The notes under the pieces are model-generated. The model made no database searches. It had not been told where the DNA came from and saw only the letters and a list, made by a program, of their open reading frames with translations. Shown here piece after piece: positions 484-57,242 of a DNA stretch of 64,000 nucleotides; position 1 is the stretch's first letter; each line of letters starts with the position of its first letter. The position numbers and the translations under genes were made by a program. This DNA comes from Bacteroidales bacterium SW299. GTDB taxonomy: Bacteria > Bacteroidota > Bacteroidia > Bacteroidales > Bacteroidaceae. Where the stretch lies: positions 1 to 64,000 of the forward strand of contig SDWH01000001.1 in NCBI GenBank assembly GCA_019550975.1, given 5' to 3'.

Positions 484-1101
484 ATGCGTATGTTTACCAA
501 CAGGGAAGAAGTATTGGAAAATGCTTTGCGAGTATTCGCAAAAATGAACTATGAGAAAGCAAGCCAGATGGAAATAGCCAAAGCCTGCGGTCTGTCAAAA
601 GCAGGACTGGTCTATTATTACCCGTTCAAGCTGGACTTGTTCGTAGCGGTCGTGGACAAATATATATTCCACACCCAACAGTTAGAAAACAAGTTCCAGT
701 TCACGGCAAGTTCGTTCTCGGAATTTATCGACCAGTATGTAACTGGGGTGGAAAATACCATGAACAGCCTTGTGAGCCTGCTCGATGACGGGAACAATCC
801 CTATGGGTGCAGCTTCAATTTCTACTACTACCACTTGCTGATGCAGGTACGGTTATATTATCCCAATGCAGAAAAGAAGATAGCCTCCATATTTGAACAG
901 AACTATCAGTTATGGAAGTCTGCCATCCAAAGAGCAAAAGAAAAGGGAGAAATCCGACAGGATGTAAATGTGGAAGAAACCGCTTCGGTGTTCTGGCAAG
1001 TCTTTTTCGGTTTTTCTTTTGAACAGTCATTCTTTCAAGGGGTGAACATAAAGCAACTGGAACAAAAACTACATTCCATTTACTCTTTGTTGAAAGCCTG
1101 A
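484..1101 (+). CDS. TetR/AcrR-family transcriptional regulator
   Basis: This 205-residue protein has the normal TetR length and layout. An N-terminal helix-turn-helix occupies about residues 8-55, with the recognition part reading GLSKAGLVYYYP. A helical ligand or dimerisation domain follows. ATG at 484 is used; a second in-frame ATG at 490 is also possible. The gene sits just inside the left end of the ICE, with a four-half-site palindrome upstream and the cassette recombinase 134 bp downstream on the same strand. It may repress itself and perhaps the recombinase, but the ligand and true targets cannot be read. Confident in family, not in role. Confidence 0.85.
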   Translation: MRMFTNREEVLENALRVFAKMNYEKASQMEIAKACGLSKAGLVYYYPFKLDLFVAVVDKYIFHTQQLENKFQFTASSFSEFIDQYVTGVENTMNSLVSLLDDGNNPYGCSFNFYYYHLLMQVRLYYPNAEKKIASIFEQNYQLWKSAIQRAKEKGEIRQDVNVEETASVFWQVFFGFSFEQSFFQGVNIKQLEQKLHSIYSLLKA

Positions 1102-1235: not shown

Positions 1236-2342
1236 ATGGACAATGTTCAAAAACAGAGAGGAAATGTCGTGCTTTACAAGGAGCAAAAGGACGGTACGGA
1301 CTACATACGGGTAGAGTATGCAGAAAACGGGGAAATCTCCTTACTACTCTCCCAAGATAAAGCCGTGGAAATGGCTGGCAACGGTTCTGCCTACATAACG
1401 GCGGAAACATTCAAGCTATCGGATTTCTACGACCGTTATTCTCCCTATGCTTACATTGATTACAGCCGGGTGTACGTGCGGCATCCCAAACCCACAAGAG
1501 AATACACGCTACCGGAAGGCTATCTTGAACTTTTGGAACAGAAACGGTACAGCCCATCGACCATAAAAACCTATCGAGCCTATTTCAGCGACTTCATGGA
1601 ATACCACAAAGGACGTAACATTGACCGTCTGAAAGTGGCAGACATCAACAGGTACATTCTCTACCTCGTGAACGAAAAGAAAATTTCCGTATCACAACAG
1701 AATATGCGCATCAACGCCATCAAGTTCTATTACGAGCAAGTGAAAGGCGGAAAACGGCAATACTACGGTGGCATTACACGGGCAAAAGAGTATAAGACAA
1801 TCCCGGAGGTATTGAGCAAGAACGAGATAAAACGCATTCTTGACCAGCTATCCAACATCAAGCATCGCTGTATGATTTCCTTAGTTTATTCTGCCGGATT
1901 GCGGCGTAGTGAACTGCTGAACCTCACACCCAAAGACATCAACAGTGAAACGATGTCTGTGCGTATCATGGGTAAAGGAAAGAAATGCCGCTATTCGCTG
2001 CTTTCGCCCAAACTACTGGAAGAACTGCGGCTGTATTTTCGTGAATACCGCCCGAAAAAATGGCTGTTTGAAGGCGAAACGCCCGGAGTTCAATACTCGG
2101 CAAGCGCATTGGTGAAAGTGCTGAAAGAAGCCGCACAACGTGCGGGCATCAAGCATCGGGTACATGTACACATGTTGCGCCATTCATTTGCGACCCATCT
2201 GCTGGAACAAGGAACAGACCTACATACGATACAGGAACTGTTAGGGCACAATGATATAAAGACCACAGCTATATATCTTCATACCTCGAATGCACATAAA
2301 GCTAAAATTCCAAACCCGCTTGATTCGTTGGATGATTCATAG
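1236..2342 (+). CDS. XerD/IntI-like tyrosine recombinase of the cassette array
   Basis: A 368-residue tyrosine recombinase. Residues 1-90 or so are an extension not seen in XerC/D. A SAM-like core-binding domain (from about YLELLEQKRYSPSTIKTY) and a catalytic domain follow. Catalytic motifs are complete: Arg in AGLRRSELL, Lys in GKGKK, HMLRH, LLGHND and the Tyr in TAIYLHT. The C-terminus NPLDSL resembles the end of IntI/XerD proteins, but the extra domain typical of integron IntI is absent. It heads a same-strand array of small AT-rich genes separated by hairpin repeats. That is the arrangement of rAID recombinases, so it is probably the enzyme that captures or shuffles the cassettes. Confidence 0.85.
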   Translation: MDNVQKQRGNVVLYKEQKDGTDYIRVEYAENGEISLLLSQDKAVEMAGNGSAYITAETFKLSDFYDRYSPYAYIDYSRVYVRHPKPTREYTLPEGYLELLEQKRYSPSTIKTYRAYFSDFMEYHKGRNIDRLKVADINRYILYLVNEKKISVSQQNMRINAIKFYYEQVKGGKRQYYGGITRAKEYKTIPEVLSKNEIKRILDQLSNIKHRCMISLVYSAGLRRSELLNLTPKDINSETMSVRIMGKGKKCRYSLLSPKLLEELRLYFREYRPKKWLFEGETPGVQYSASALVKVLKEAAQRAGIKHRVHVHMLRHSFATHLLEQGTDLHTIQELLGHNDIKTTAIYLHTSNAHKAKIPNPLDSLDDS

Positions 2343-2453
2343 GGTGCAGCTATTAGAGATTAGGAAACACACCTGCCGGGTGTCGGTTATCGAAATATCC
2401 TACACCTAAAGGTGCATTTATAAACAAATTAACATCAAAAACAGTGTACCATA
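2343..2453 (+). other. attI-like region between recombinase and first cassette
   Basis: This 111-bp gap has two short inverted repeats: ACACC/GGTGT at 2369-2383 and CACCT/AGGTG at 2403-2414. Between them lies a GGTTATCGAAATATCC segment. It has the position an integron-type primary insertion site would have. Its sequence differs from the four downstream repeats, as attI sites differ from attC sites. Function is inferred from position only. Confidence 0.35.
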
Positions 2454-3176
2454 ATGGAAACAAGAGATAAACTTTTTACCGAAGAACAGTATATAAAGCA
2501 ATTGGCTAAGTATACTACCAGAATAGAAAAACTTAATAGTATGATAGAACAATCAGAAAAAGATGGTGATGAGATTAGCCCTGATTTGTATGGACGTTTA
2601 TTTGATTGTAGAGTTTATACTATCGTAACTATGTATTCTATGGGGGAGAATTTAGAATCTATAGAATCCAATTATATTTTAACAATCAATGTTTTAGAAA
2701 AATGCTGGACTCCGTATGGCTATTATGTTCAGATGTTATGGTTGCTTTCAATAGGAATCATGTTGGAGTATGATAATAATGTTATTGATAAACTCCGCGT
2801 ACTTATAGACATGAAAGAAGTTAAAGACCGTGTTTATGATGTATTGCTGAATTACCGTTTCCCGGAACGGAAGGAAATGGCGGATTGTGTGTTTGATGCT
2901 GTGCCTTATCGGGCAATCTTGGAAGTGTCGGATTTGGCTAAAACAAACAAGCTTCAAGCGACGAAGCGATTGGAAAAGTATCTAAAAAGGGAATGGTATC
3001 GAGGACATTCCGATTGTGCTTGGCATGACGACCACAAATATGGTATAATACATGATGGATATTGGAGTTTTGAGAGCGGTGCATTGGTCAAGGTTTTGGG
3101 GCTGGATGATAGCAGCCTGAAAGGGTTGCCATATTATCCATACGATATGGTACACTGGAGTGAGAATAAAATATGA
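2454..3176 (+). CDS. PoNi-like immunity protein (DUF1910/DUF1911)
   Basis: A 240-residue soluble, mainly helical protein. The C-terminal third carries the signature of PoNe-immunity (PoNi, DUF1911) proteins: WYRGHSDCAWHDDH, then HDGYWSFESGALVKVLGLDD and LPYYPYD. PoNi proteins neutralise PoNe DNase toxins delivered by type VI secretion or contact-dependent systems. No cognate toxin gene is nearby, which makes this an orphan immunity gene. It is the first cassette after the recombinase, starts 111 bp downstream of it, and ends 1 bp before a hairpin repeat. Base composition is visibly more AT-rich than the transfer genes, suggesting separate acquisition. Confidence 0.75.
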   Translation: METRDKLFTEEQYIKQLAKYTTRIEKLNSMIEQSEKDGDEISPDLYGRLFDCRVYTIVTMYSMGENLESIESNYILTINVLEKCWTPYGYYVQMLWLLSIGIMLEYDNNVIDKLRVLIDMKEVKDRVYDVLLNYRFPERKEMADCVFDAVPYRAILEVSDLAKTNKLQATKRLEKYLKREWYRGHSDCAWHDDHKYGIIHDGYWSFESGALVKVLGLDDSSLKGLPYYPYDMVHWSENKI

Positions 3177-3177
3177 T

Positions 3178-3223
3178 GTTAACGAAGCAGGATAACGGCA
3201 AGCCGTTCCCTGCTGAACCATTA
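3178..3223 (+). repeat. attC-like hairpin repeat 1
   Basis: Begins GTTAAC and ends GAACCATTA. Inside are nested inverted repeats GCAGG/CCTGC and AACGG/CCGTT around a small loop, with unpaired bases between the stems. Closely related to the repeat at 4892-4939. It separates cassettes 1 and 2. Confidence 0.65.
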
Positions 3224-3239
3224 TGAACAGTAGCAATAT

Positions 3240-3599
3240 ATGATACATAGAATATTAGGATATTTATGGTATAAGACAGAATACTTAATCCGACATTCAG
3301 ATTCTTGGCATGTCCCAGATGTGTTAAGTATTGTAATTATATTTTACGGAGTAGATATAGCTTTGATATATTGGGCAGCTACAAGTGTTAATCCGGGACC
3401 ACTTTTTCTGCTTGCCTTTCCTCTTGTATGGATTATTCTGTATATTTATTATCATTATAAACGACGGTATTTGAAAATTCGAGAGGACGAATCGTATAAG
3501 AAATATTCCAATGTATGGGCTATTCTATTTTTAATATTACCGTTTATTATTCTAATTGTATTGCTGTTTATGGCAGATAAATTTTATATGCCATATTAA
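3240..3599 (+). CDS. Small membrane protein cassette (candidate immunity)
   Basis: A 119-residue protein with about three hydrophobic segments (around residues 25-47, 50-70 and 90-112) and a basic/acidic loop KRRYLKIREDESYKKY between the second and third. I do not recognise a family. Multi-pass membrane proteins of this size are common immunity partners for pore-forming or inner-membrane toxins, and the position inside the cassette array supports that guess. ATG at 3240 lies 17 bp after the preceding repeat. A second related repeat follows about 20 bp after the stop codon. Confidence 0.6.
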   Translation: MIHRILGYLWYKTEYLIRHSDSWHVPDVLSIVIIFYGVDIALIYWAATSVNPGPLFLLAFPLVWIILYIYYHYKRRYLKIREDESYKKYSNVWAILFLILPFIILIVLLFMADKFYMPY

Positions 3600-3621
3600 T
3601 CTTTTATAATAAAATAAGTTC

Positions 3622-3669
3622 ATAACAAGGTTGAGATAACAGCTAACGCTGTTTCTCACCAAACCATTA
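3622..3669 (+). repeat. attC-like hairpin repeat 2
   Basis: Starts ATAACAAGGTTGAGA and ends AAACCATTA. Stems AACAGC/GCTGTT and GAGA/TCTC, with GGT/ACC outside, close a four-base loop. Near-identical to the repeat at 4201-4249, but with different stem bases from those at 3178 and 4892. Confidence 0.65.
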
Positions 3670-3695
3670 TCAATAATTATAATTCTCTTAGTATT

Positions 3696-4160
3696 ATGGA
3701 AAATAAATTATCACCAAATAATCCAATCATTTTATGGGCAAATGAAATTAGTCCATACTATAAAAATAAGGATTACGAAAAAGTTTTATCTATTGATAAA
3801 AAAATTTGGGATGAATTAGAGGAACCTAAGTTATCGCAAGAATTAGCTTTTCATGTGTTATTAGATATTGTTGTCATTTATATTACATTAAATGATTTTG
3901 AAAGCGCCCAATATTGGGGAAATATTCTTGATAAATATAATTATGTAGAAAGTGGACGTTTTGACTCTGGCCAAAAAGATTATTTTGTCGGAATCGTTTA
4001 TTTTGAAAGGAAAGAATATCAGAAAGCATTTGAATATTTTTCAAACGCTAAAGCCAAGTCTCGAGGAAGATGTTTCAAAATGGTATGGGGAGAAAAATAC
4101 TCACAGGCTTATAAAGAACTGCTCATGAAGTTTGGTAAGAAATCCACTAAAAAGAGATAA
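3696..4160 (+). CDS. TPR-like helical cassette protein
   Basis: A 154-residue, soluble, helix-rich and very AT-rich gene. The pattern around residues 100-125 (YFVGIVYFERKEYQKAFEYF) looks like a tetratricopeptide helix pair, and the middle of the protein (residues 45-80) may hold another. The C-terminus is lysine-rich. Helical-repeat proteins are frequent among immunity proteins in such arrays, but no specific family is recognised. ATG at 3696 follows a repeat by 26 bp. The next repeat begins about 40 bp after the stop. Confidence 0.6.
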   Translation: MENKLSPNNPIILWANEISPYYKNKDYEKVLSIDKKIWDELEEPKLSQELAFHVLLDIVVIYITLNDFESAQYWGNILDKYNYVESGRFDSGQKDYFVGIVYFERKEYQKAFEYFSNAKAKSRGRCFKMVWGEKYSQAYKELLMKFGKKSTKKR

Positions 4161-4200
4161 TCTCTATGTGAATATTATTCCATTTAATAACAATATATTG

Positions 4201-4249
4201 ATAACAAGGTCGAGCCAACAGCTGAACGCTGTTCCTCACCAAACCATTA
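4201..4249 (+). repeat. attC-like hairpin repeat 3
   Basis: Starts ATAACAAGGTCGAG and ends AAACCATTAA. Stems AACAGC/GCTGTT and GAG/CTC flank a five-base loop. Same subfamily as the repeat at 3622-3669; the differences are mostly at unpaired positions, and outer bases are conserved. Confidence 0.65.
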
Positions 4250-4272
4250 ATGTTCGACTTAAAAAAGTAAAT

Positions 4273-4890
4273 ATGAAGATAATAAATTGGACATTACTTT
4301 TTCTTGCAGCGTTTTTTTGTTGCTTTGATAGCGTGAAAGCAAATCCATTGCGGCAAGATACTATACGGGATGTAACCTATCAACTTTATCCATTGGGGGT
4401 TGCCTGCCGTGACAATGACATGGCAACCATAAAACGGTTGCTGGCAGGAAAAGATGAACCTATGGCAATGAGTAACGATTTTTATGAGTTTGACATATTC
4501 TATACGGCGATTTACTTTGATAAAGAGGATGTACTGAAATATGCCCTTACCAGGTATAAGGACATTAATAACAGATTATATAGTGACGAATATGGGCTGA
4601 CGCTCCTGACATATGCCTGTAAATTGTCTAATGTGAAGTTAGCCCGCATATTGCTGGAACATGGCATTGATGTAAACGGTTACCAAAGTCCATACGATAC
4701 ATATAAAGTATATCCGATTATGGAAGCCATTGCCAATAATAACATTGAATTGGTAAAGTTGCTTTTAGAATATCATGCAGATCTTAATATAAAAGATAGT
4801 AACGGCAACACCCCTCTTGCTTTAGCAAAGGAAATAGGTGCAAAAGAAGTAGAAGATTTGCTTTTAATGGACGGAACAACAAAAAAATAA
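4273..4890 (+). CDS. Secreted ankyrin-repeat protein cassette
   Basis: A 205-residue protein starting at ATG 4273. An in-frame extension to 4132 would overlap the previous gene and the hairpin repeat, so it is rejected. The N-terminus MKIINWTLLFLAAFFCCFDSV is a signal peptide. The mature part contains ankyrin-type repeats, seen in YGLTLLTYACKLSNVKLARILLEHGIDVNG and in IELVKLLLEYHADLNIKDSN followed by GNTPLALAKE. Periplasmic ankyrin proteins serve as immunity proteins in other polymorphic toxin systems. No toxin partner is present. The gene ends 1 bp before the next repeat. Confidence 0.7.
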   Translation: MKIINWTLLFLAAFFCCFDSVKANPLRQDTIRDVTYQLYPLGVACRDNDMATIKRLLAGKDEPMAMSNDFYEFDIFYTAIYFDKEDVLKYALTRYKDINNRLYSDEYGLTLLTYACKLSNVKLARILLEHGIDVNGYQSPYDTYKVYPIMEAIANNNIELVKLLLEYHADLNIKDSNGNTPLALAKEIGAKEVEDLLLMDGTTKK

Positions 4891-4891
4891 T

Positions 4892-4939
4892 GCTAACAAC
4901 GCAGGATAACGGACAAGCCGTTCCCTGCTGAACCATTAT
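4892..4939 (+). repeat. attC-like hairpin repeat 4
   Basis: Begins GCTAACAACGCAGG and ends GAACCATTA. Stems GCAGG/CCTGC and AACGG/CCGTT match the repeat at 3178-3223, with a slightly larger loop. It is the last repeat of the array. Confidence 0.65.
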
Positions 4940-4957
4940 AACGAAGCCCCCAAAATT

Positions 4958-5506
4958 ATGAACGGAACAAAAAAACATTCTTTCTATTTGTTAGTGATTT
5001 GTACGGTTGTCATGTTTGGCATTGCGGCATATCTTCTGGTTTCGGGCGGCAGCAGTCACGGAACTATTTGGGGCGGTCGCTATGGTGATAAGTTGGAAGG
5101 GACAATCAACGGATATGGAGTTCTTATGATAGCTGTTGGCATGCTTTTTTACACCCTCTTATGGAGGTGGCAGAACAGGCAGAAAGGCTTTTCCATTTCA
5201 ATGGGAGAAGTGGAAAACATTATTATAGGTCATGCAGACGCCAAACAAGTCAAAGAGTTACTTTCCTCAGAATATTGGAATGTAAAAATTCTCTTGTTTG
5301 TGAAGAACAACGCCAATGGACATATCTTGCAAATGAGTAGAATTGATACAGAGAAAATCCGGATATGTTTATCTATTAAAAACAGCACCTATCAACTTGC
5401 GGATTTTTCCCATAAAGAAGCACTGTTTTCTTCAAGGCAAACGAATGAAGTGGTGGATGATTATTTCCGTTCATCCAATCTTTTAACAGAAAAGAAGTAT
5501 GTGTGA
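4958..5506 (+). CDS. Two-TM membrane protein, last cassette of the array
   Basis: A 182-residue protein with hydrophobic segments at about residues 9-28 and 52-68 and a cytoplasmic C-terminal domain of roughly 110 residues. The family is not recognised. ATG at 4958 lies 18 bp after the last hairpin repeat. No repeat follows: its stop codon overlaps the GTG start of the AraC-type gene. It may be the distal cassette whose own recombination site has been lost, or a gene fixed at the array boundary. An immunity role is inferred only from position. Confidence 0.6.
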   Translation: MNGTKKHSFYLLVICTVVMFGIAAYLLVSGGSSHGTIWGGRYGDKLEGTINGYGVLMIAVGMLFYTLLWRWQNRQKGFSISMGEVENIIIGHADAKQVKELLSSEYWNVKILLFVKNNANGHILQMSRIDTEKIRICLSIKNSTYQLADFSHKEALFSSRQTNEVVDDYFRSSNLLTEKKYV

Positions 5507-6372
5507 AAGAAACAACAATAATAGAAGATATGGAACATCGAATTACATCACTACTGCTGCCCGCTCCTGAAACGGAGTTGGAAACATCCAGCAAGGAATT
5601 GGACAACAAGGTAACATGGTTGTTACACAACAACCGGAAGATGGACAACTATTTGAAACTGGAAACATTCAGCAAGGACGAACGTCTGTGCGGTTACGTG
5701 TGCGACACGCTCCGAAGCCTGCCGGAAACCCCGACACTGGCGGCATACAAGGACTACAAGGCAATCATTGTCCTGCTTGGCATATCCACCACGCACTATG
5801 CCATCTTGGACGAACTGGCTGAACAACACCGCAAGCGGAACGACATCCCGGAGCTGACCGCCTACTGTGATGCCCTCCACTGGATGCGACCGGGACGGCA
5901 ATACCTCTGCAACGTATATAATACCGTATGTCATGCTTTCCATCTGCTACGAAGAAACCCGGTGAGGGACAACCGTCTGCTGATTACGGAACAGGAATTG
6001 CGTCACGCTGAACGAATGTTGCCGGAACTGGGCAAGCAAACATTCATCGAAATGGTTCGGATGAAAGGTTATAAAATATATAATGCCGAAGAGCTTGCCG
6101 AAAAGTGCGGTATGGAATACGGATCTTTCCGGCGTAAGATGAAAAAGGTTACCGGATATACCGCCAAACAGTGGGTAATAAAGGAACGGGCAAAAGACGT
6201 GGAACATTACCTGATGAATACCAGCTTCACACTTACCGAAGTAGCGTTTACAACCGGATTCGCATCCACATCGAACCTGAACGACTTTTGCCGGGCTTAC
6301 CTGCTTGATACACCGGGAGAAATCCGAAGGAAAGCGCAGGAAACAAGAAAATGCACAGATATAAGAATGTAA
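5503..6372 (+). CDS. AraC-family transcriptional regulator
   Basis: A 289-residue protein whose last 100 residues form the double helix-turn-helix of AraC/XylS regulators (YNAEELAEKCGMEYGSFRRK, then FTLTEVAFTTGFASTSNLND and a RAYLLDTPGEIR tail). The N-terminal 180 residues are helical and are not a cupin. The annotated GTG at 5503 overlaps the stop of the previous gene by 4 bp; ATG at 5530 is an alternative. It lies directly upstream of rteC and occupies the place that the RteA/RteB two-component system holds in CTnDOT. It may therefore be the activator of rteC here (inference). Confidence 0.8.
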   Translation: MKETTIIEDMEHRITSLLLPAPETELETSSKELDNKVTWLLHNNRKMDNYLKLETFSKDERLCGYVCDTLRSLPETPTLAAYKDYKAIIVLLGISTTHYAILDELAEQHRKRNDIPELTAYCDALHWMRPGRQYLCNVYNTVCHAFHLLRRNPVRDNRLLITEQELRHAERMLPELGKQTFIEMVRMKGYKIYNAEELAEKCGMEYGSFRRKMKKVTGYTAKQWVIKERAKDVEHYLMNTSFTLTEVAFTTGFASTSNLNDFCRAYLLDTPGEIRRKAQETRKCTDIRM

Positions 6373-6410
6373 TGTAAAAAACGAAGAATAAAATGATTTT
6401 CAGTCGGTTG

Positions 6411-6418
6411 TAACTTTG
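6411..6418 (+). promoter_or_regulatory. -7 promoter box of rteC
   Basis: TAACTTTG matches TAnnTTTG and lies 22 bp before the rteC start. No good TTTG -33 box is at the usual distance, which would fit a promoter needing an activator. Confidence 0.45.
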
Positions 6419-6440
6419 CATCAAATAATGGTTCAAAGTT

Positions 6441-7301
6441 ATGGAAAATATAAAGCCCCTGAAAACATATTTTGCGGAACTCCTGCAACAAACAGAATTA
6501 CAGATACGTGACTATGAGGAAAAAGCGCCTGACATCCTGTCCTTATGCAAGATGGTTGTGGACTACCTGCAAGGCGTGCTGGAGAAACTGAAAGCCTTTA
6601 TCATGGCTTACCGCTTTGAAAGCCCGGAAGAAGAAATACATTTCTTCAAAGCTCAAAAGCCGCTCATAGTAAGCAAAATCATCTATTACAATACTGTCTA
6701 TCGGATAGAACTACGTTTTCCAAGCGGCAGCATGGAAGTCCAGAAAGAATTTATCCTTTCTGAAACCCACAGGCTTTCCGTATTTTTCCACCGCAATTTG
6801 AGTTTCCACGAATATTACCGCACAGATGCCACCTACTTGGATAGCAAATACTTCCTGCGTGGGAAACCTGACATACAGATAATTGTAGATAACTTCTACT
6901 ATGAAACAGACCCACAGTTCAGCACCAGTTACGATTTCAAGGTCGCCAAAATCAGGGCGAACCAACTGCTGGAAATATACCTGACAAACAGGCTGAACGA
7001 ACTGGAACGGCGGGAACAACGGCAAGGGATAAAGAATAATTTTACAGGGAAGCCCATACGCTGGACTGGCACGAAACGGTCATTGGTGGAACTTATCTAC
7101 TCACTGGACACGGCAGGCTGTCTGAACAAGGGAACGGCTGACATAAAGGACATTGTAGCCTACTTTGAAGAAATGCTGGATATAGATTTGGGAGATTTCT
7201 ACCATACCTACATGGAATTGAAAGCCAAGATGAAAGACCGTACCAGCTTCCTTTCCATGCTGAAAGAACGCTTGCTGCAACGTATGGAAGAACAGGATTG
7301 A
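6441..7301 (+). CDS. rteC: RteC-family regulator of ICE excision
   Basis: A 286-residue protein with the overall features of RteC: an N-terminal helical region, then SVFFHRNLSFHEYYR and YLDSKYFLRGKPD in the middle, and a winged-helix-like C-terminus (IRWTGTKRSLVELIYSL). In CTnDOT, RteC activates the excision operon xis2c-xis2d-orf3-exc. Here it is followed by a hairpin terminator and then an HTH protein and a primase/helicase, consistent with control of excision genes. The rteA and rteB genes are absent from the window; the AraC-type gene just upstream may replace them. Confidence 0.85.
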   Translation: MENIKPLKTYFAELLQQTELQIRDYEEKAPDILSLCKMVVDYLQGVLEKLKAFIMAYRFESPEEEIHFFKAQKPLIVSKIIYYNTVYRIELRFPSGSMEVQKEFILSETHRLSVFFHRNLSFHEYYRTDATYLDSKYFLRGKPDIQIIVDNFYYETDPQFSTSYDFKVAKIRANQLLEIYLTNRLNELERREQRQGIKNNFTGKPIRWTGTKRSLVELIYSLDTAGCLNKGTADIKDIVAYFEEMLDIDLGDFYHTYMELKAKMKDRTSFLSMLKERLLQRMEEQD

Positions 7302-7328
7302 GCAATTTCATTTTAACAAAATTTATTT

Positions 7329-7360
7329 CGCCACAGGTGGGTTCGCCTGTGGCGATTTAT
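7329..7360 (+). terminator. Rho-independent terminator after rteC
   Basis: Perfect 9-bp stem CGCCACAGG/CCTGTGGCG (7329-7337 with 7346-7354) around an 8-nt loop, followed by an AT-rich T tract. It separates rteC from the next operon. Confidence 0.75.
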
Positions 7361-7405
7361 TTTTCTGCAACCCCGAATTTTGCAGCGAACCAATTAGTTA
7401 GCGAT

Positions 7406-7765
7406 ATGGAAATAATAACATTCGAGTCAAAAGCCTACAAGGAGCTTGACAACAAGATTACCGCCATAGCGGATTACATCTTCAACCATTTGGATTCCGG
7501 CAAACCCGATGAAGATGAAATTTGGGTGGACAGTTACGAAGTATGCACATTCCTGAAAATCAGCGACCGTACACTGCAACGCCTGCGGGCGGCAGGACTG
7601 GTTTCCTATTCCGATATAAAAGGGCATTATTTCTACAAAATCAAGGAAATAAAACGTCTGCTGGAAGAACGCCTGATAAAACGGGACAAGGAATATATAA
7701 ACGACCTGATAACCAACCATCATCAATATGTTAAAGAAAGAAGAAATACTAAGCCGAACAAATAA
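7406..7765 (+). CDS. Excisionase-like HTH protein (Xis2c-like)
   Basis: A 119-residue protein. ATG at 7406 is chosen because the longer frame would begin before the terminator hairpin. The C-terminal half has a MerR/excisionase-type winged HTH (WVDSYEVCTFLKISDRTLQRLR, then GLVSYSDIKGHYFYKIKEI). This is the type of small DNA-binding protein found as Xis2c/Xis2d in CTnDOT-like elements, where it directs excision with the integrase and controls transfer genes. It overlaps the start of the primase/helicase gene by 38 bp, implying translational coupling. Confidence 0.7.
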   Translation: MEIITFESKAYKELDNKITAIADYIFNHLDSGKPDEDEIWVDSYEVCTFLKISDRTLQRLRAAGLVSYSDIKGHYFYKIKEIKRLLEERLIKRDKEYINDLITNHHQYVKERRNTKPNK

Positions 7766-9773
7766 CGGCTTATCCGTTTTCAAGCATTATTTACCGGGTG
7801 AATGGCGGATAGGCAGGCATTTCCTTAATCCCTTATACGAAGATAGAAAAGCATCCTGCAACATCTACTTCGACCGCCATAGCGGTATGTACAAGATGAA
7901 AGACTTCGGTAACGACAATTACAGCGGCGACTGCTTTTTCCTCGTGGGGCAACTGAAAGGGCTGGATTGTAACCGGGCTTTGGACTTCATCGAGATACTG
8001 GAAACCATCGACCGGGACTTGGGGCTGGGCTTATCTTCCGGGACACCCGTTCCTATATCCCAGACTACTGACAAACGTCTTGCGGCGAACACACCTGTTG
8101 AACCGCCCGAAAAGCCTGTCAAGCCTTACCAGTTCAGGGAACAGAAATTTTCCTCCGCCGAAATGGAATACTGGCGGCAGTACGGCATCACTCCCGAAGT
8201 ACTGGAACATTACAAGGTCTGCTCACTCCGGGAATACAGCAGTGAAACGGCAGAGGGAAAGCCATACACCTACATTTCATCGGCGGCAGAACCGATGTAC
8301 GGCTACAAGGGCAAACAGTATATCAAGCTGTACCGTCCCTTTTCCACACCCCGTTTCCTATATGGCGGCAGCTTCGGGGAAAACTACTGTTTCGGATTGG
8401 AGCAACTGCCCGCCAAAGGTGACACATTGTTTATCACGGGTGGCGAGAAGGACGTACTTTCACTGGCGGCACATGGCTTTCATGCCATCTGCTTCAACAG
8501 TGAAACGGTAATGATACCGTCCACGCTGGTTTATCGGCTGACGTTCCGTTTCAAGCACATTGTCCTGCTTTTCGACATGGACAAGACAGGCAGGGAGAGT
8601 TCAAGCAGGCAGGAAAGACTGCTGGGGGAATTTGGCGTGAAACGCCTTTCTCTACCGCTTCCGGGCACGAAAGAGGAAAAGGACATATCGGATTATTTCA
8701 GGGCGGGTAACACCCGTGAAGATTTCCTGAAACTGTTTATCAGATTTTTAGACGACCTATATAGCGACACACTGATTATGCTTAAATCATGCGAGATAGA
8801 CTTCAACAACCCGCCCGTCAAAGCACAGGTCATCATATCGGCGGGCGATGTTCCACTGGGAACACAAGGCAACCTGTTCGGCATCACCGGGGGCGAGGGA
8901 ACGGGCAAGAGCAACTATGTAGCCGCAATCGTGGCAGGCTGTATCAGCCCTCCCGATACGGAAACAGACACGCTGGGCATACGGATAACCGCTAACGACA
9001 GGCACAAGGCGGTCTTGTTCTATGATACCGAACAGTCGGAAGTACAGCTTTTCAAGAACGTAAGCAACCTGCTGGCACGTGCGGGGCAAAAGGAAAAGCC
9101 GGAAGAACTGAAAGCGTTCTGCCTTACGGGAATGTCCCGAAAGGAACGGTTGAACGCCATAATACAAAGCATGGATAAGTTCTACTACCAGTATGGCGGC
9201 ATCCAGTTGGTTGTCATTGACGGCATCGCCGACCTCGTAAAGAGTGCCAACGATGAAGCGGAAAGCGTGGCGGTGATAGATGAACTGTATCGGTTGGCGG
9301 GTATCTACAACACCTGCATACTTTGCGTGCTTCATTTTGTCCCGAACGGATTAAAGCTGCGTGGACATCTGGGAAGCGAACTACAAAGGAAGGCAGCTAC
9401 CATCCTGTCAATCGAGAAAGACGATGAACCCACGCAATCGGTAGTGAAAGCCCTGAAAGTAAGGGACGGAAGCCCGCTGGACGTGCCGCTGATGCTTTTC
9501 GCATGGGACAAGAAAGCTGGGATGCACACGTACCGGGGCGAAAAGCCACGTGAAGAAAAAGAGAAGCGCAAGGAAAGGGAGCTGGTGGGTGTAGCCCGTG
9601 ATATTTTCGGGCGGCAGACACACATCACCTACATAGACCTTTGCGAACAGTTGCAACAGGTACTGGACATCAAGGAGCGGACAGCCAAGAACTATATCCG
9701 TTTCATGCGGGAGAAAGAAATCATCCTGAAAGACCCGGCAAACCAGAGTTATTTTATGATAGGTCTCATTTAA
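7728..9773 (+). CDS. Primase-helicase type protein (Toprim plus RecA-like ATPase)
   Basis: A 681-residue protein with three parts. The N-terminus resembles the zinc-binding region of primases without an obvious full cysteine set. A Toprim core lies around residues 225-300 (FITGGEKDVLSLA, then VLLFDMDKTGRES). A RecA-like ATPase covers about residues 350-600, with Walker A GGEGTGKS near 388 and Walker B VVIDGIADL. A small basic C-terminal domain resembling a winged helix follows. It likely acts in replication of the excised circular ICE. It is coupled to the upstream HTH gene and lies 19 bp before a second HTH gene. Confidence 0.75.
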   Translation: MLKKEEILSRTNNGLSVFKHYLPGEWRIGRHFLNPLYEDRKASCNIYFDRHSGMYKMKDFGNDNYSGDCFFLVGQLKGLDCNRALDFIEILETIDRDLGLGLSSGTPVPISQTTDKRLAANTPVEPPEKPVKPYQFREQKFSSAEMEYWRQYGITPEVLEHYKVCSLREYSSETAEGKPYTYISSAAEPMYGYKGKQYIKLYRPFSTPRFLYGGSFGENYCFGLEQLPAKGDTLFITGGEKDVLSLAAHGFHAICFNSETVMIPSTLVYRLTFRFKHIVLLFDMDKTGRESSSRQERLLGEFGVKRLSLPLPGTKEEKDISDYFRAGNTREDFLKLFIRFLDDLYSDTLIMLKSCEIDFNNPPVKAQVIISAGDVPLGTQGNLFGITGGEGTGKSNYVAAIVAGCISPPDTETDTLGIRITANDRHKAVLFYDTEQSEVQLFKNVSNLLARAGQKEKPEELKAFCLTGMSRKERLNAIIQSMDKFYYQYGGIQLVVIDGIADLVKSANDEAESVAVIDELYRLAGIYNTCILCVLHFVPNGLKLRGHLGSELQRKAATILSIEKDDEPTQSVVKALKVRDGSPLDVPLMLFAWDKKAGMHTYRGEKPREEKEKRKERELVGVARDIFGRQTHITYIDLCEQLQQVLDIKERTAKNYIRFMREKEIILKDPANQSYFMIGLI

Positions 9774-9792
9774 TTTCAATCGGGGGTAGCTT

Positions 9793-10071
9793 ATGTATAT
9801 AGACAATGACAACTTCGTGGCATGGATGGAGCGTATCATGGACAGGCTCGACATGCAGGATAAAAAGATAGACCGTCTGATGAACAGCCACAACTGCCTG
9901 AACGGTGAAAAGCTGCTCGACAATCAGGACTTGTGCTTTATGCTCAAAGTGAGCGTCAAGACCTTGCAGCGTTACCGGAAGAAAGGCATATTGCCCTATC
10001 TTCTTCTGGACGGAAAATATTACTATCGGGCAAGCGACATACACAGGCTTATTCGTGAGCGCACGGATTAG
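9793..10071 (+). CDS. Small excisionase-like HTH protein (Xis2d-like)
   Basis: A 92-residue protein with an acidic N-terminus and a C-terminal winged HTH (DLCFMLKVSVKTLQRYRKKG, then LDGKYYYRASDIHRL). It is homologous in pattern to the 7406-7765 product. Paired small HTH proteins of this kind control excision and tra expression in CTnDOT-like elements. It is the last gene of the rteC-downstream operon, followed within about 35 bp by a strong terminator. Confidence 0.7.
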   Translation: MYIDNDNFVAWMERIMDRLDMQDKKIDRLMNSHNCLNGEKLLDNQDLCFMLKVSVKTLQRYRKKGILPYLLLDGKYYYRASDIHRLIRERTD

Positions 10072-13200: not shown

Positions 13201-14523
13201 CTACATTTTCATCCCTCTGGACTTCTTGGGTTTGTCCGTTTTCAGGCTCTTGTCCTGTGCTTTTTCCTGTTTCTCTTTCTGCTTGGCGGTGGGTTTCTGT
13301 TGTCCCTGTTTCAGCGGCTCTTTGGTCTGTTTGGTTGCTTCATCGGTCTTTCCTCCAGAATTGACCGCTACCTGCGTCCGGCTCTCGGAAACGGGGATAA
13401 CATCTTTCGGCTGCACCTTGCCGGAGGATTTGCCCTGTACTCCGGGCTGCACATGACCGTTGAACTCCACACCCTTGCCGTCCTTTAATCCTGTGACCTG
13501 CTGCTGTGCGGGCTGCTGCCCCTGCTGCAAGAACTGGACGGCAGACCTCGGCAGGAACTCCAAGCCACGCTCCACTGCGCTGACTTGAAGATAGGCACTG
13601 CGTTTCGTCCCGTCCTTGAATTGCAGGTTTTCCATCTTGACGGGTTTCCCAGCTTCAAAAGCGGCTTTCTGTTCCGGGCTCACTTTCACGCCACAAACGG
13701 TATCGGGGCATTTCCACTTGTCTGCCCGCATGTACTCCAGTTCATGGGTGTATCTGTCCCGGCTGACGAACACGGGGATTTGCTCCCCGTTTTTCGGGTC
13801 TTTGATTTGGATAATACCGCCCAGATTGCCAGTTCCCAGCAGGTTGCCTTGTTCCTGCTTGGAAAATTCGTGCCCGTTATACGGGCGTTGAAGCAGCTTT
13901 TCATCCATTTGCACGCCGTGCAGCTTAGGCACTACCGTCCCGTCCTTTGCCTGATAGAAAGAGAGCTTGACATCGGTAGGTTTAAGGTAGAAGCCGCCTA
14001 CCGTCCCCGAAACGGTATAGGTGTTGCGGGATTTGTAGCCACGCATCACCCTGTCGAAATCCTTTGTGTTTTTCAACGTGTCGGCGGTAATGCCGACTTT
14101 CTTCAAGTCCTCCCAATTGATTTTAGCCGGGTCGAAACGGTAGTCCTGCCTGCCCCCGTTATTGTCGGGATTCGGAACTCGCAACATTTCCGCCCGTCTG
14201 TCGCCCTCCGGCGTGGGGTTGCGGTGGTTGTCCTCGATAGCTTTTGCGTCCTGTTCCGCTTCCGTAGCCTTGCAGCGGAACAAAGCCAGTCCCTCCGTGT
14301 CCTGATACCTGCGGAAAAAATTGGAAATGAAGTTGCTGAACACATCGCTGTTCCTGTCCACCTGCATAAACTCACCGCTATGGGATTGGGTCGGTTCTAC
14401 GGTCTGCAAATTGCCCTCGTTGTCGATACCTTTAACGGCACTCACTTTCCCCTGCTGTTTATCCAAGACCAGCAGCACGTCTTTTTCCTGCCCCTCTGCG
14501 GGCGGGTTCATTCTGTTTGCCAT
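13201..14523 (-). CDS. DUF4099/DUF3945-type ICE protein
   Basis: A 440-residue soluble protein. Residues about 130-170 (INWEDLKKVGITADTLKNTK) form the DUF4099-type motif. The segments FYLKPTDVKLSFYQAKDGT and LPRSAVQFLQQ flank DUF3945-like repeats. The C-terminal 100 residues are Lys/Gln-rich and probably disordered. Proteins of this family accompany topoisomerase genes in Bacteroidales ICEs; their biochemical role is not known. It lies 26 bp upstream of the topoisomerase on the same strand and carries the AACCACTAAAATT leader motif just before its ATG. Confidence 0.75.
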   Translation of the reverse strand: MANRMNPPAEGQEKDVLLVLDKQQGKVSAVKGIDNEGNLQTVEPTQSHSGEFMQVDRNSDVFSNFISNFFRRYQDTEGLALFRCKATEAEQDAKAIEDNHRNPTPEGDRRAEMLRVPNPDNNGGRQDYRFDPAKINWEDLKKVGITADTLKNTKDFDRVMRGYKSRNTYTVSGTVGGFYLKPTDVKLSFYQAKDGTVVPKLHGVQMDEKLLQRPYNGHEFSKQEQGNLLGTGNLGGIIQIKDPKNGEQIPVFVSRDRYTHELEYMRADKWKCPDTVCGVKVSPEQKAAFEAGKPVKMENLQFKDGTKRSAYLQVSAVERGLEFLPRSAVQFLQQGQQPAQQQVTGLKDGKGVEFNGHVQPGVQGKSSGKVQPKDVIPVSESRTQVAVNSGGKTDEATKQTKEPLKQGQQKPTAKQKEKQEKAQDKSLKTDKPKKSRGMKM

Positions 14524-14795: not shown

Positions 14796-16136
14796 TTATA
14801 TCCGTGATACGTTAGTGAGCCATTTAGGTGTATAATAAGTTCCCTTACCCACTTTTCCCTGCATATCCAGCCAGCCGTTCATTTGCTGGAGTATGCGGGA
14901 AGCTGTCGGTTTGCTTACTCCCAAAATTTCCTGCACGTCCGAGTTTGTCACACGCCCGTTCTTGGCTGCATACTCTATAACAGGAATATACCTTTCATCC
15001 ACCCGCTGCACCAGCAGTTGAGAACGTATATCGGTATAATAGGTAATCATCAGACCGCTTAACATTTCAAGTCGGGGCGGCAGCAATTTGTATGCGCTGA
15101 CCGCTTCCAAGATACGCTTGTAGCCCCGTCCCCAGCTTTCGATGTCCCCGCTTCTGAAAAATGCGTTGGCGATTAACGGGTTATATGGAGAGGATGGATG
15201 GTTTTCAAAAAGCCTTTCGGTAGTCCAGTTCTCCGGCAACTGCCCGGCGTTCCAAAAAGTGATATGGTCGGGAAATACGCTAATCTGAACGGGCACGGCA
15301 CTGGCGTAGTCTTTATGTGCTACGGCATTCATCAACGATTCCCTGATGGCTTCTACCGGGAACTGCGGCGTTTCACGCCGAGAAATTCCCTCGTATGAGA
15401 TACGGTAAATCAGGTATTTGCTTTTTATCAAATCCATAGCCTTGTCCACCTGCTCCATCAAAGCACCGTGAATTTCGTCCTGAAACTCCAGATTGCCTTT
15501 GTCATCCCGGAAGAAACCAATCTTTATATATGCACCGAACACAAACCTTTCAGGGTCGGGATGGAACAGCAGCAGTGCTGCACGGTTCAAATGTCCGTCC
15601 TCGTCTATCAGACGTAAATCATGCAGCAGGTGTTCGGTCTTATCTTTCAAAACACCCTCGTCCACCCGTCCGCTCCTTGCCGCTTCCTTACGGAAACGGT
15701 TCAATGCGCTTTCCGACAGTTCTTCTATTTTGGCTCTTTCTATGGGAAACTCGTCCCAATGCCTGCCTGTACGTTGCAGGATAAAGCGGTTCAATGCCGC
15801 TCCTTTCAACTCCTGTTTCGTGCTACCGCTGCGGTAATGGTATTGACCTTTATAATTGATAGGGTTCGAATAAGGCGGCACGTCAATTTCCACATACTCC
15901 AACCCGTCTTTGTCCAACAGGTTCACGTCCACAATGATACCCAGCACATCACGGACTTTGTTCGGTATGTCCTCCAACAGCTTCTTGGCATCGGCAACAC
16001 CGACCACCTGCCCGCTGTCATTCATGCCTATATATATCTTGCCGCCTGCGGCATTGGCAAAACCACATATCCATTTCAGATAGTCGTCCCGCCAGCTTTC
16101 TTTCCATTCTATATTTTGGTTCTCATTCATAATCAT
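14796..16136 (-). CDS. AlbA_2-domain (Schlafen-like) putative regulator
   Basis: A 446-residue protein. An N-terminal AlbA_2 nucleic-acid-binding domain (ENQNIEWKESWRDDYLKWIC, then FANAAGGKIYIGMND) is followed by a GHKL/HATPase-like region (IRESLMNAVAHKDYA, then GRGYKRILEA). A C-terminal winged helix (VTNSDVQEILGVSKPTASRIL) ends the protein. Such proteins are called RecG-related or Schlafen-AlbA_2 regulators; some act in stress response or phage defence, but most are uncharacterised. It has its own terminator and splits the mob genes from the topB module, so it is likely cargo rather than transfer machinery. Confidence 0.75.
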   Translation of the reverse strand: MIMNENQNIEWKESWRDDYLKWICGFANAAGGKIYIGMNDSGQVVGVADAKKLLEDIPNKVRDVLGIIVDVNLLDKDGLEYVEIDVPPYSNPINYKGQYHYRSGSTKQELKGAALNRFILQRTGRHWDEFPIERAKIEELSESALNRFRKEAARSGRVDEGVLKDKTEHLLHDLRLIDEDGHLNRAALLLFHPDPERFVFGAYIKIGFFRDDKGNLEFQDEIHGALMEQVDKAMDLIKSKYLIYRISYEGISRRETPQFPVEAIRESLMNAVAHKDYASAVPVQISVFPDHITFWNAGQLPENWTTERLFENHPSSPYNPLIANAFFRSGDIESWGRGYKRILEAVSAYKLLPPRLEMLSGLMITYYTDIRSQLLVQRVDERYIPVIEYAAKNGRVTNSDVQEILGVSKPTASRILQQMNGWLDMQGKVGKGTYYTPKWLTNVSRI

Positions 16137-34402: not shown

Positions 34403-35638
34403 TCACATGGCGACTTCCTTATAAATCTTTTCGATACCGACAAATTTCTTGTCAAGCCCCTGCATATCGCTGCTAATCTTGTTGTTAGTGATGCGGGCGT
34501 AAATTTGTGTTGTTTCAATGTTAGTATGTCCCAGCATCTTGCTGACGGTTTCAATGGGCACACCCTTTGCCAGCGTGGTGGTCGTGGCGAACGTGTGCCG
34601 GGCAAGATGGAATGTGAGGTTCTTTTTAATCCCGCACACATCGGCAATCTCTTTCAGGTAGGCATTCAGCTTTTGGTTGCTGATTATAGGTAATATCTTT
34701 CCGTCCGGCAGCTTGCCTTTGTATTTCTTCAATATCATTTTGGGAATATCCAACAGGGGAACATTCACGTCCGTGTTGGTCTTTTGCCGCTTCGTCATTA
34801 TCCACAGATTACCGTCAAATGACTTTCGGATATTCTCTTGCCGCAGGTTGGCGACATCACTGTAAGCCAGACCGCAGAAACAGGAAAAGATGAACAAGTC
34901 CCTGACGTGTTCCAAACGCTCGGAAGCCATTTTCTTTTTGAGGATGATTTTTATCTCGTCTTCCGTCAAATAGCCCCTGTCCACTTTTTCCAGCCGGATT
35001 TTATAGCTGGCGAACGGGTCTTTGTCCAGTATGCCATTGTTTCGGGCTATGATGATGATGCGCTTGAAAAACTGCATGAACTTGGCGGTGGTGTTGTAAC
35101 CGCACTTGCAGGCTGTACGCAAATATAACTCGAAATCGGTAATGAACATCGGGGTTATTTCCCGGATGGAAATATCAGAAAGGTTATATTTACTCTGTAT
35201 AAACTCCGCAAGGTGACGGCGTGTAACCTCATACTTGCGGTAGGTCGCTATCGTCTTGGATATGCCAACAAGCTGTTTCACGTCCTCATTGTGCTTTTGG
35301 AACAAGGCAAGGATGGTTTCGTGGTTCTCGCTGTGTCCCAAAAACTCGTTTTTAACTTTCTCGGCAGTAACGTAATTATCACGCCGCTGCATTTCGTGGT
35401 AGATGGTGTTCAGCGATGCGTTTATATCGCTTAACATACGGTTGATACGTCCGGCTTCCGCCGTGCGTCCGATAGCCTTGCCAGCCTTACCGTCCCACAT
35501 TTCAGGCAACACGTCCAATTTAGTATTAAAACGGCTTGCCACACCGTCCACTGTGATACGGGCGAAAAGGGGGTACGCACCGCCCGCTTTCTGCTTGTCT
35601 TTCTTTGCGTAAAAGCAAATGTTGAATGTCGATTTCAT
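34403..35638 (-). CDS. IntDOT-like tyrosine integrase of the ICE
   Basis: A 411-residue tyrosine recombinase. An N-terminal arm-binding domain (STFNICFYAKKDKQKAGGAY) precedes a SAM-like core-binding domain and a catalytic domain. Catalytic motifs HLARHTFAT, LGHTNIETT and the Tyr in QIYARI are present. The usual first arginine is replaced: the motif reads FCGLAYSDV (Ala near residue 258). IntDOT also lacks this arginine (it has Ser), so the enzyme is probably active by the same tolerant mechanism. It sits at the right ICE end with arm-like and core repeats upstream. Confidence 0.88.
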   Translation of the reverse strand: MKSTFNICFYAKKDKQKAGGAYPLFARITVDGVASRFNTKLDVLPEMWDGKAGKAIGRTAEAGRINRMLSDINASLNTIYHEMQRRDNYVTAEKVKNEFLGHSENHETILALFQKHNEDVKQLVGISKTIATYRKYEVTRRHLAEFIQSKYNLSDISIREITPMFITDFELYLRTACKCGYNTTAKFMQFFKRIIIIARNNGILDKDPFASYKIRLEKVDRGYLTEDEIKIILKKKMASERLEHVRDLFIFSCFCGLAYSDVANLRQENIRKSFDGNLWIMTKRQKTNTDVNVPLLDIPKMILKKYKGKLPDGKILPIISNQKLNAYLKEIADVCGIKKNLTFHLARHTFATTTTLAKGVPIETVSKMLGHTNIETTQIYARITNNKISSDMQGLDKKFVGIEKIYKEVAM

Positions 35639-53887: not shown

Positions 53888-55315
53888 ATGGAGAAGAAGA
53901 AAGAAGAAACGACGGAAAAGCAAAGCAGGAAAGCGAACGTAGCCGACATGGTGCAAAGCCAAGTTTTGCCGTTGGCAGACATAACCCCGAATAAGGGGCA
54001 AATTCCCGGCGTTCCTAAGAACCCAAGACTTATCCACGATGATAAGTTTAAGCTATTGAAGCGCAGTATAGAGGAAGACCCGGAAATGTTGGGGCTTCGG
54101 GAAATACTACTTTACTCCTACAAAGGAAAGTACATTATCGTAGGCGGAAATATGCGCTACCGGGCATTGAAGGAATTGGGATATACGGAAGCAATAGTAA
54201 AGATATTGCCGCAAACATTCACGGCGGAAAAGCTACGCGCCATTGTCATAAAGGATAATAGCGGCTTTGGGGAATGGGATTGGGACGAATTAAGCAACGT
54301 TTGGGACGCTACCGACCTTGCTAATTGGGGCGTAGATGTGCCGGAATTGGATAAGGTAGAAGTAGAGGAAGAAGCCGAAGAAGATGACTTCAACGTAGAG
54401 GAACACCTGCCAAAGAAAGCAAAGGCGAAGTTTGGCGACATATACGCTTTGGGCAAACACCGTCTTATCTGCGGCGACAGCACGGACGGGGAAACGGTTA
54501 GCCTATTGGTTGGAGACAGCAAAGTAGATTTGCTCCTTACCGACCCTCCTTATAACGTGGACTATTCAAGCAAGAACGAAGCGTTAAACGCCGCAGACAA
54601 AGGCAACCGCATACAGAAGGACATCGCCAACGACAAAATGGAAGATACGCAGTTTCAAGAGTTCCTAACGGCGGCTTTTACAAACGCGAACCACCACCTT
54701 AAACAAGGCGGCGCGTTCTACATTTGGCATGCAGGAACGGAAGGGCTTAACTTCAAAATAGCGGTAAAGCGCGTAGGTTGGGACTTAAAGCAGATACTTA
54801 TTTGGAACAAAAACAACATGGTTTTAGGAAGGCAGGATTACCAATGGAAGCACGAACCATGTTTGTACGGTTGGAAACCCGGTGCAGGGCATTATTTCAT
54901 AGCCCGGCGCGATTTGCTTACGGTGTACGAAGAAAAAGACATCGATATAGACGCGCTTACGAAAGCGGAAATGAAAGACTTACTTAAAAAGTTCCTTCAA
55001 GGCTCAATCCCTACGACCGTAATAGACGAAGACAAACCGCTAAGAAGCGAAGACCACCCAACAATGAAGCCGTTAAAACTTATGGGGCGTTTGATACGGA
55101 ACAGCACACGACCGGGCGAAGTAGTGTTAGACCTTTTCGGCGGAAGCGGTAGCACGTTGATGGCAGCGGAACAGTTGGGGCGCGTTTGCTATATGGTTGA
55201 GTTAGACCCGTGTTATATAGACGTTATTATCAAACGTTGGGAAGAATACACGGGAGAGAAAGCAAAGTATTTGGGGAATTGCGCCAAAGAAGGGAACACC
55301 GAACAAAAAGAATAA
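53888..55315 (+). CDS. ParB-like nuclease domain fused to DNA methyltransferase
   Basis: A 475-residue protein. Residues about 30-130 are a ParB/Srx-like domain (YIIVGGNMRYRALKELGYTE). The methyltransferase domain follows with DPPYNVDYSS at residue 219 and the SAM-binding FGGSGSTLMAAEQLGRVCYM near the C-terminus, an N4-cytosine/N6-adenine order. ParB-MTase fusions are widespread in phages and may protect phage DNA from restriction or mark packaging sites. It directly precedes the terminase genes. Confidence 0.85.
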   Translation: MEKKKEETTEKQSRKANVADMVQSQVLPLADITPNKGQIPGVPKNPRLIHDDKFKLLKRSIEEDPEMLGLREILLYSYKGKYIIVGGNMRYRALKELGYTEAIVKILPQTFTAEKLRAIVIKDNSGFGEWDWDELSNVWDATDLANWGVDVPELDKVEVEEEAEEDDFNVEEHLPKKAKAKFGDIYALGKHRLICGDSTDGETVSLLVGDSKVDLLLTDPPYNVDYSSKNEALNAADKGNRIQKDIANDKMEDTQFQEFLTAAFTNANHHLKQGGAFYIWHAGTEGLNFKIAVKRVGWDLKQILIWNKNNMVLGRQDYQWKHEPCLYGWKPGAGHYFIARRDLLTVYEEKDIDIDALTKAEMKDLLKKFLQGSIPTTVIDEDKPLRSEDHPTMKPLKLMGRLIRNSTRPGEVVLDLFGGSGSTLMAAEQLGRVCYMVELDPCYIDVIIKRWEEYTGEKAKYLGNCAKEGNTEQKE

Positions 55316-55327
55316 AAACACCGAGAA

Positions 55328-55768: not shown

Positions 55769-55771
55769 GCA

Positions 55772-57226: not shown

Positions 57227-57242
57227 CTAAATACTTACAATT

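Follow-up and report, generated by a model that had tools for sequence, protein, structure and literature searches.

The first 64,000 nucleotides of contig SDWH01000001.1 of Bacteroidales bacterium SW299 (GenBank assembly GCA_019550975.1; this whole stretch is called the window below) carry on the forward strand a gene for a tyrosine recombinase followed by five short AT-rich genes that read in the same direction. We find that this array belongs to the class termed recombinase-associated acquired interbacterial defence (rAID), that the unit also takes in a TetR-family regulator gene and an attI-like site, and, judging from the sequences, that it very probably works like a reverse integron, in which the recombinase would insert and excise cassettes site-specifically and the cassette products would be protective. 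At the sequence level the evidence comprises the sites, their conserved fold, the complementarity of cassette ends, the attI junctions and the turnover of cassettes between related loci.

In a 2025 preprint (PMC12247911), rAID systems comprise short orphan immunity genes that share one orientation, conserved motifs in the intergenic DNA, and a tyrosine recombinase; they are described there as a widespread defence against the type VI secretion system, with a mechanism of biogenesis that is an "area of active research". We observed four features of such a locus in the window: a recombinase upstream of at least two (here five) co-directional genes, a GC content in these genes of 29-39% (below 41%, and compared with 47% for the window), four intergenic motif sites, and lengths of 119, 154, 182, 205 and 240 codons (class range about 100-300). 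Among the five products, immunity cargo is represented clearly by a PoNi-like and weakly by a Bfi1-like protein. The assignment to rAID, which the first-pass annotation of this DNA had also made along with the layout of the genes, is by the first four of these features and not by comparison with the reference recombinase BF9343_RS08045. Clusters of this kind were reportedly described in Bacteroidales by Ross et al. in 2019, and the window array is no different in kind. What we add is the fold and direction of the motif, the boundary of the cassette, the attI-like site and the constant TetR gene. Among the matches listed, sequence evidence for the rAID mechanism appears to be new; the original rAID paper may already propose an integron-like mechanism.

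Of 35 recombinase loci fetched for comparison, the 27 with close recombinases (the named loci) were used, and L057-L062, L066 and L067, with recombinases 36-50% identical, were left out of the counts. On reading the named loci we observed the same type of hairpin between genes. A covariance model of it, R1, built from an alignment of 85 distinct sites that includes the four of the window, places one site 3' of each of the first four genes and none after the fifth, in keeping with the hairpin repeats first noted there by inspection. The next match in the window has an E-value of only 1.7, and across the whole 3.87 Mb genome the four sites are the sole R1 matches at E 1 among the 150 of 1280 first-look candidates that were scored. 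They fold better than nearly all of 200 shuffled versions of each, on both strands (z -3.2 to -5.5). Over the 85 sites, eight named base pairs are formed in 94.6% of 680 cells, compared with 73.6% after shuffling; double changes number 154, compared with 43.5, and shifting the partner lowers the proportion of paired cells to 39-53%. At E 0.05 there are 161 R1 sites in the named loci, all 161 on the recombinase strand. At least one is present in 23 of the 27 loci, and in those without (L034, L036, L047 and L064) the sequence downstream runs for 0.2 to 2.7 kb. The layout of the site is N5-TAAC-AA-stem-AT/C-stem-loop-...-AACCA, with the boundary between AACCA and TTA, and its length is mostly 44-48 nt. 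With the covariance model, 11 of the 201 genomes sampled from the family proved to have sites, while a survey of the order under strict filters found them in 2 of 247, both with a recombinase match of at least 91%. Nine of the 27 loci (L034, L035, L036, L038, L047, L050, L051, L056 and L064) end less than 4 kb past the recombinase, a pattern that would arise if arrays interrupt assembly. In 35 of 162 cassettes, drawn from 24 arrays, the longest frame stops at or inside the hairpin, and the site supplies the stop codon or a coding part.

The two ends of a cassette are complementary, in that the pentamer following CCATTA at its start has its reverse complement directly in front of TAAC at its other end. 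In the first set, from which three pairs starting at upstream sites of L033 were left out, 110 of 138 pairs of adjacent sites match at all five positions, compared with a mean of 3.8 and a maximum of 11 for shuffled partners (5000 trials), and the bases to the left and right of one and the same site match in 2 of 164 cases. By position, complementarity is 0.88-0.93 at one to five and 0.56 at six (shuffled 0.44), and falls to background beyond. A site list made by regular expression, since superseded by that of the covariance model, gave 70 of 103 full matches; one representative per cassette cluster gave 92 of 114 (shuffled mean 3.2, maximum 10). Ten further loci, partly from genomes that had also given first-set loci and with sites found by the model built on the first set, gave 45 matches in 70 pairs, or 33 in 57 once 13 pairs with first-set cassettes had been removed (shuffled mean 1.5, maximum 8), and 0 in 80 across one site; L075, L078 and L083, counterparts of L048, L050 and L039, were left out of this set. 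When the three core bases are included, 21 of 22 first cassettes match at eight of eight positions and one at seven; some of the 22 depend on one another, as L033, L039 and L046 carry one and the same first cassette. This shared cassette, which encodes an IS91-type transposase, has TTC as its core and GAA as its far end, so the core itself obeys the rule. Joining the end of a cassette to its start, as in a circle, improves the fold over that in the array for 117 of 137 cassettes, leaves it equal for 16 and worsens it for four, one pair having been omitted by length. Integron cassettes, which move as circles, display complementary ends. The complementarity observed here is the signature of such cassettes, and it suggests that rAID cassettes would pass through circles as well.

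Between the recombinase stop codon and the first cassette, close loci are conserved up to ...AACAAA or ...AATAACA and the TTA that follows, and then diverge. Patterns derived from the aligned loci recognise attI in 25 of 28 loci, its crossover lying 57-93 nt past the stop codon. Different cassettes begin at the exact TTA of attI, where R1 detects no hairpin. Within two groups of loci (L034/L037/L038 and L035/L036/L055), the modules of TetR gene and recombinase are 99.0-99.6% identical, yet the first cassettes differ.

Cassette order is not fixed among related arrays, the comparison that the first-pass annotation had proposed for detecting gain or loss of single cassettes. Loci that share a cassette (a protein cluster at 90%) mostly have different neighbours around it: 28 of 30 comparisons show another cassette after it, and 23 of 25 another before it. 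Among 21 locus pairs whose TetR and recombinase DNA is at least 94.8% identical, 17 share no cassette cluster and four share one to four; in five of the 17, a contig end cuts one array before any complete cassette. L035 and L055, with five and 11 cassettes respectively, have none in common. Clusters c16, c17, c18 and c19 are present in both L053 and L054; in L054, c17 and c18 are separated by an additional block whose start coincides exactly with a site (13765-13812). Nineteen of 126 cassette clusters are found in at least two named genera, with coding sequences up to 99.9% identical; cassette 2 of the window recurs at 99.1% in Phocaeicola barnesiae (L048, position 1) and at 98.9% in Mediterranea sp. 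An20 (L037, position 2), with identical edges. The complementary ends, the precise attI junctions and this exchange between relatives bear out the integron-like working that had been proposed for the array (Table 1); the ends and the junctions are the traces to be expected if the recombinase acts on the repeats. The recombinase match in Phocaeicola intestinalis (L033) is preceded by another TetR gene and three more sites (4293-9860), which suggests tandem modules.

Table 1. Features of the array in the window, with the evidence for each
Feature	Positions	Strand	Evidence
TetR-family regulator	484-1101	+	Pfam TetR_N E 1.3e-7
Tyrosine recombinase, 368 aa, extra N-terminal domain (~residues 10-78)	1236-2342	+	Phage_integrase E 1.7e-39
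attI-like region; inverted repeats 2369-2383 and 2401-2416; inferred crossover 2428/2429 (between AACAAA and TTA)	2343-2431	+	conserved to TTA, divergent beyond across loci
Cassette 1: PoNi-like immunity gene (2454-3176)	2429-3220	+	PoNi_N E 2e-17, PoNi_C E 6e-27; ends TTAACATC / GATGTTAA 8/8 complementary
attC-like site 1	3180-3223	+	R1 E 2.9e-12; fold
Cassette 2: hydrophobic protein of 119 aa (3240-3599) with weak likeness to Bfi1	3221-3666	+	Bfi1 family E 2e-4, below cut-off; ends 8/8
attC-like site 2	3623-3669	+	R1 E 2.3e-14
Cassette 3: 154-aa protein (3696-4160) resembling tetratricopeptide repeats (TPR)	3667-4246	+	TPR_1 E 9e-4, below Pfam cut-off; ends 8/8
attC-like site 3	4202-4249	+	R1 E 3.9e-14
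Cassette 4: ankyrin-repeat protein (4273-4890)	4247-4935	+	clear ankyrin repeats; 97% in L033 and L037, 88% in L042
attC-like site 4	4894-4938	+	R1 E 2.4e-12
Terminal gene (4958-5506), no 3' site; candidate cassette at most	4936-5506	+	no R1 site after it

The five genes had been described as a PoNi-like gene and others of membrane, TPR and ankyrin types, with no toxin gene among them. The PoNi-like assignment is confirmed by both PoNi families. Of the other types, the ankyrin repeats are clear (the gene starts at 4273, a correction to an earlier note) and the TPR match is weak, while we read the 119-aa product as a membrane protein by eye from its hydrophobic stretches. That the membrane and TPR products could not be assigned holds for the most part; the 119-aa protein has a faint likeness to the Bfi1 immunity family, which it matches at 21 bits (cut-off 100) and which five of its 12 aligned relatives match at E 1e-5 at best, all below cut-off. 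Family scans found no toxin family among the five genes, and VipB was not found in the genome by a weak test, in which only E. coli of 14 control genomes was positive.

Across the 162 cassettes, the longest frame lies on the recombinase strand in 161 and the GC content is below 41% in 154. We scanned 124 cassette proteins, leaving out those under 60 aa. Among the first 25 of 41 Pfam families, the matches include Imm-NTF2 (6), Tdi1 (5), GAD-like (5), Imm43 (4), PoNi (4), Imm22 (2), Imm5 (1) and Imm68 (1), and these include no toxin family. NCBIfam, whose members may overlap with the Pfam counts, returned TaeI (5), Bfi1 (4) and one IS91 transposase, as well as matches to ankyrin effectors of the type IV secretion system and to XopL, which we take to be repeat matches; PADLOC returned four minor families. 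The IS91-type transposase gene behaves as a cassette, the one with the TTC core and matching GAA end, occurring in L033 (11194-14321, two in tandem), L039 and L046, with its start also in L034. A Bacteroides ovatus plasmid carries an array of the same layout with 12 sites, where TetR, integrase, SMI1/KNR4, Imm26, PoNi and Tdi1 are annotated.

The terminal gene lacks the end CGTTATAA that would be expected of a cassette. Its product matches no Pfam or NCBIfam family above cut-off and has no relative among the 36 loci searched; the structure model, of low confidence (mean pLDDT 69), has two long hydrophobic helices and no PDB match at E 0.001. In L041 to L045, too, the DNA from the last site to the AraC gene is without the expected end and, by eye, is partly common between loci. 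The distal end of the array may thus be fixed DNA of the element or a decayed cassette. Homologs of the terminal gene (P0028 and P0033, compared over 4958-5530) run on beyond the window's stop codon (V-W-K-K-Q-Q compared with V-stop), and the AraC gene may begin at ATG 5530 and not at GTG 5503.

The recombinase had been called XerD/IntI-like. The likeness stands, given its Phage_integrase match and given that IntI4 is its best match among solved structures (sequence E 1.9e-35; fold E 2e-16 at a TM-score of about 0.5), with XerA next; however, the tests made do not class it as an IntI. It scores 193 bits against the integron-integrase model TIGR02249 (cut-off 265) and, just below cut-off, 214 against the XerA/integron model NF040815 (cut-off 220); the alpha-I2 insertion is absent, since IntI4 residues ~210-244 are unaligned and the flanking pieces of the query abut; and the cores of its sites are TAAC and CCATTA instead of RYYYAAC and GTTRRRY. 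Invariant across 19 aligned sequences are R223, K247, H312, R315, H338 and Y347, which we take to be the catalytic residues. The N-terminal domain, about 70 residues long, is modelled with a pLDDT of 81-87 over most of its length and is conserved within the close group. The alpha-I2 helix of IntI contacts an extrahelical base (PMC3053210). Perhaps the N-terminal domain does this work on the folded site. XerA and XerD share the fold and act at a dif site, whereas the window enzyme has the extra domain and sits with a cassette array (no search for dif was made). A TetR homolog lies directly upstream of the recombinase in all 27 named loci (identity 45-86%). TTAGTGCAAGGTGCAAG, a perfect inverted repeat of 17 bp whose arms are 19 nt apart, lies just 5' of the window's TetR gene (364-416) and is a candidate operator.

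Integrons whose integrase reads in the same direction as the cassettes, as the window recombinase does, are termed reverse integrons (PMC7691350 and PMC4909258). According to the same papers, that of Treponema denticola likewise has integrase and cassettes co-directional with attI between them; it has an integron integrase, whereas the rAID enzyme falls below the family cut-off and is accompanied by shorter sites with different core bases and by cargo of the immunity type. Classical integrons (PMC3053210) resemble the array in having folded attC sites with unpaired extrahelical bases and insertion at attI, but differ in their RYYYAAC/GTTRRRY cores and sites of 57-141 bp (compared with TAAC/TTA and mostly 44-48 nt in rAID), and their integrase is usually divergent (PMC7691350). 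By analogy with integrons, which gather antibiotic-resistance genes, we infer the following scheme. A recombinase of the XerA/IntI-like group, beside a TetR regulator that would control the module, would insert mostly single-gene cassettes at an attI-like site ~90 bp past its own gene, and would join or remove cassettes at attC-like sites, each read as a folded single strand of one choice. In the cassette circle, the TTA-N5 start would pair with the cassette's own N5-TAA end, and this pairing would make up the outer box of the site in its folded form. A cassette inserted beside the recombinase would come to lie within a co-directional transcript, from which it could be expressed by read-through, and its product would guard against toxins delivered by neighbours.

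Two other explanations of the repeats were considered. Homologous recombination between similar hairpins could shuffle the repeats with the recombinase as a bystander, and some site cores are indeed identical and recur in several loci. Such exchange, however, would not yield ends that are complementary cassette by cassette, adjacent sites often differ in sequence type, and various cassettes begin at the exact TTA of attI although it has no R1 hairpin; we regard this explanation as very unlikely. That the hairpins are transcription terminators or messenger RNA elements of a static operon, their likeness to integron sites being superficial, would fit with their intergenic position and good folding on either strand, but the complementarity spans a whole gene and not the interior of a hairpin, cassette order is not static, none of the four window hairpins is among the listed terminator-like sites, and the sites match no Rfam family at E 1. 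This we consider scarcely credible, while an additional role of the hairpins in RNA is possible.

Several observations nevertheless weigh against the reverse-integron interpretation. No recombination has been observed. The ends fall short of five matches in 28 of the 138 pairs of the first set and in 24 of the 57 further ones, many of these pairs spanning long gaps in which a site was possibly missed or has decayed. The ends of cassette 4 of the window are unmatched because its first six bases, TTAGCA, which are present in L033, L037 and L042, are gone (window 4247-4260): the relatives begin TTAGCATTAATG, while the window begins TTAATG, six bases late, as if the crossover had slipped to the second CATTA. 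The terminal gene is without a site, and attI is unrecognised in L047, L050 and L065. Some pairs with similar modules have cassettes in common (four clusters in L053/L054, two in L049/L052, and one each in L039/L055 and L042/L045). Finally, many cassette proteins have no assigned function, and one recurring cassette encodes the IS91-type transposase, which is not an immunity protein.

The origin of the system is a separate matter, and the view of it given below is compatible with the mechanism proposed above. Of 295 genomes sampled from the order, 107 contain recombinase matches at E 1e-40. Among 37 distant loci (L004-L032, L057-L062, L066 and L067), R1 sites are found only in L004 (recombinase 91%), with the limit that L005-L032 are 2.5-4 kb long and arrays there could be missed. 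Three known arrays contain 6, 40 and 21 repeated 14-mers; L057, L060, L061 and L062 contain none, L066 contains 37, L067 1514, and L059, which proved a real array, 30. Repeated 10-mers were rejected as an array detector, as they gave no separation (44 and 122 in the known L048 and L046, and up to 1493, in L067, elsewhere). L059 (10001-13693) is a single locus in a draft metagenome-assembled genome of Flavobacterium sp. Its enzyme is 44% identical to the window's, has an N-terminal extension and no alpha-I2 insertion, and scores 216 of 220 with the XerA/integron model and 200 of 265 with TIGR02249. Downstream are four co-directional sites of 132-134 nt with cores GTTATGC, GTTGGGT, GTTGGCT and GTTAGCT, only GTTGGGT being a strict GTTRRRY, and with a strict RYYYAAC in two of the four. 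Three cassettes lie between two such cores, and in these an initial stretch of 10, 9 and 10 bases, respectively, is found again in reverse complement 132-134 nt before the end, with 9-11 of 12 bases matching for own partners and 7-8 for wrong ones; by eye, the first cassette begins GTTGGGCGAT and matches ATCGCCCAAC at its end. One L059 cassette resembles, by eye, a toxin-antitoxin pair. In L059, too, an enzyme without alpha-I2 has its own integron-type array, here one with classical-looking sites and the same end rule.

Because of L059, kinship with integrons proper leads among the rival views of origin: rAID recombinases would be a branch of integrases in Bacteroidota that lost alpha-I2 or never had it, with sites that became shorter. 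The match to IntI4 and the shared end rule favour this view, as does the L059 enzyme preceding long GTT-core sites; against it, both enzymes miss the TIGR02249 cut-off, the alpha-I2 insertion is termed essential to integron function in the literature, and rAID cores are TAAC/TTA, with only one of the four L059 cores strict. We rate it as possible and, on balance, doubtful. Bacteroidota may have a reverse-integron lineage of their own without alpha-I2, of which a branch with long GTT-core sites (Flavobacterium) and the short-site, TetR-paired rAID branch of gut Bacteroidales that exchanges immunity genes across genera, each cassette setting the outer box of its site for itself, would both be part; we give this slightly less than even credence and make no claim that the origin was independent. 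On the evidence of L059, rAID may be one branch of an integron lineage that lacks alpha-I2.

The array lies in the context of a conjugative element. An RteC match was found by Pfam, and ten further open reading frames scanned in the window include a TraG ATPase, TraM, a coupling protein, a topoisomerase and, within the element, a separate arm-type integrase (34403-35638). A Schlafen/AlbA-RecG-like protein and an AAA ATPase (14796-16136 and 40755-42815) are possible accessory or defence genes, and a DNA methylase with an SPP1-type portal protein (53888-58733) probably marks a prophage located past the end of the conjugative element.

The boundaries, the attI point and the end rule make a direct assay of rAID biogenesis feasible, and with them every cassette can be delimited from sequence. 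Cassettes so delimited could be mined for immunity proteins to toxins that have yet to be described. If the enzyme works without an alpha-I2 helix, it would represent a second way of recombining folded single-stranded DNA.

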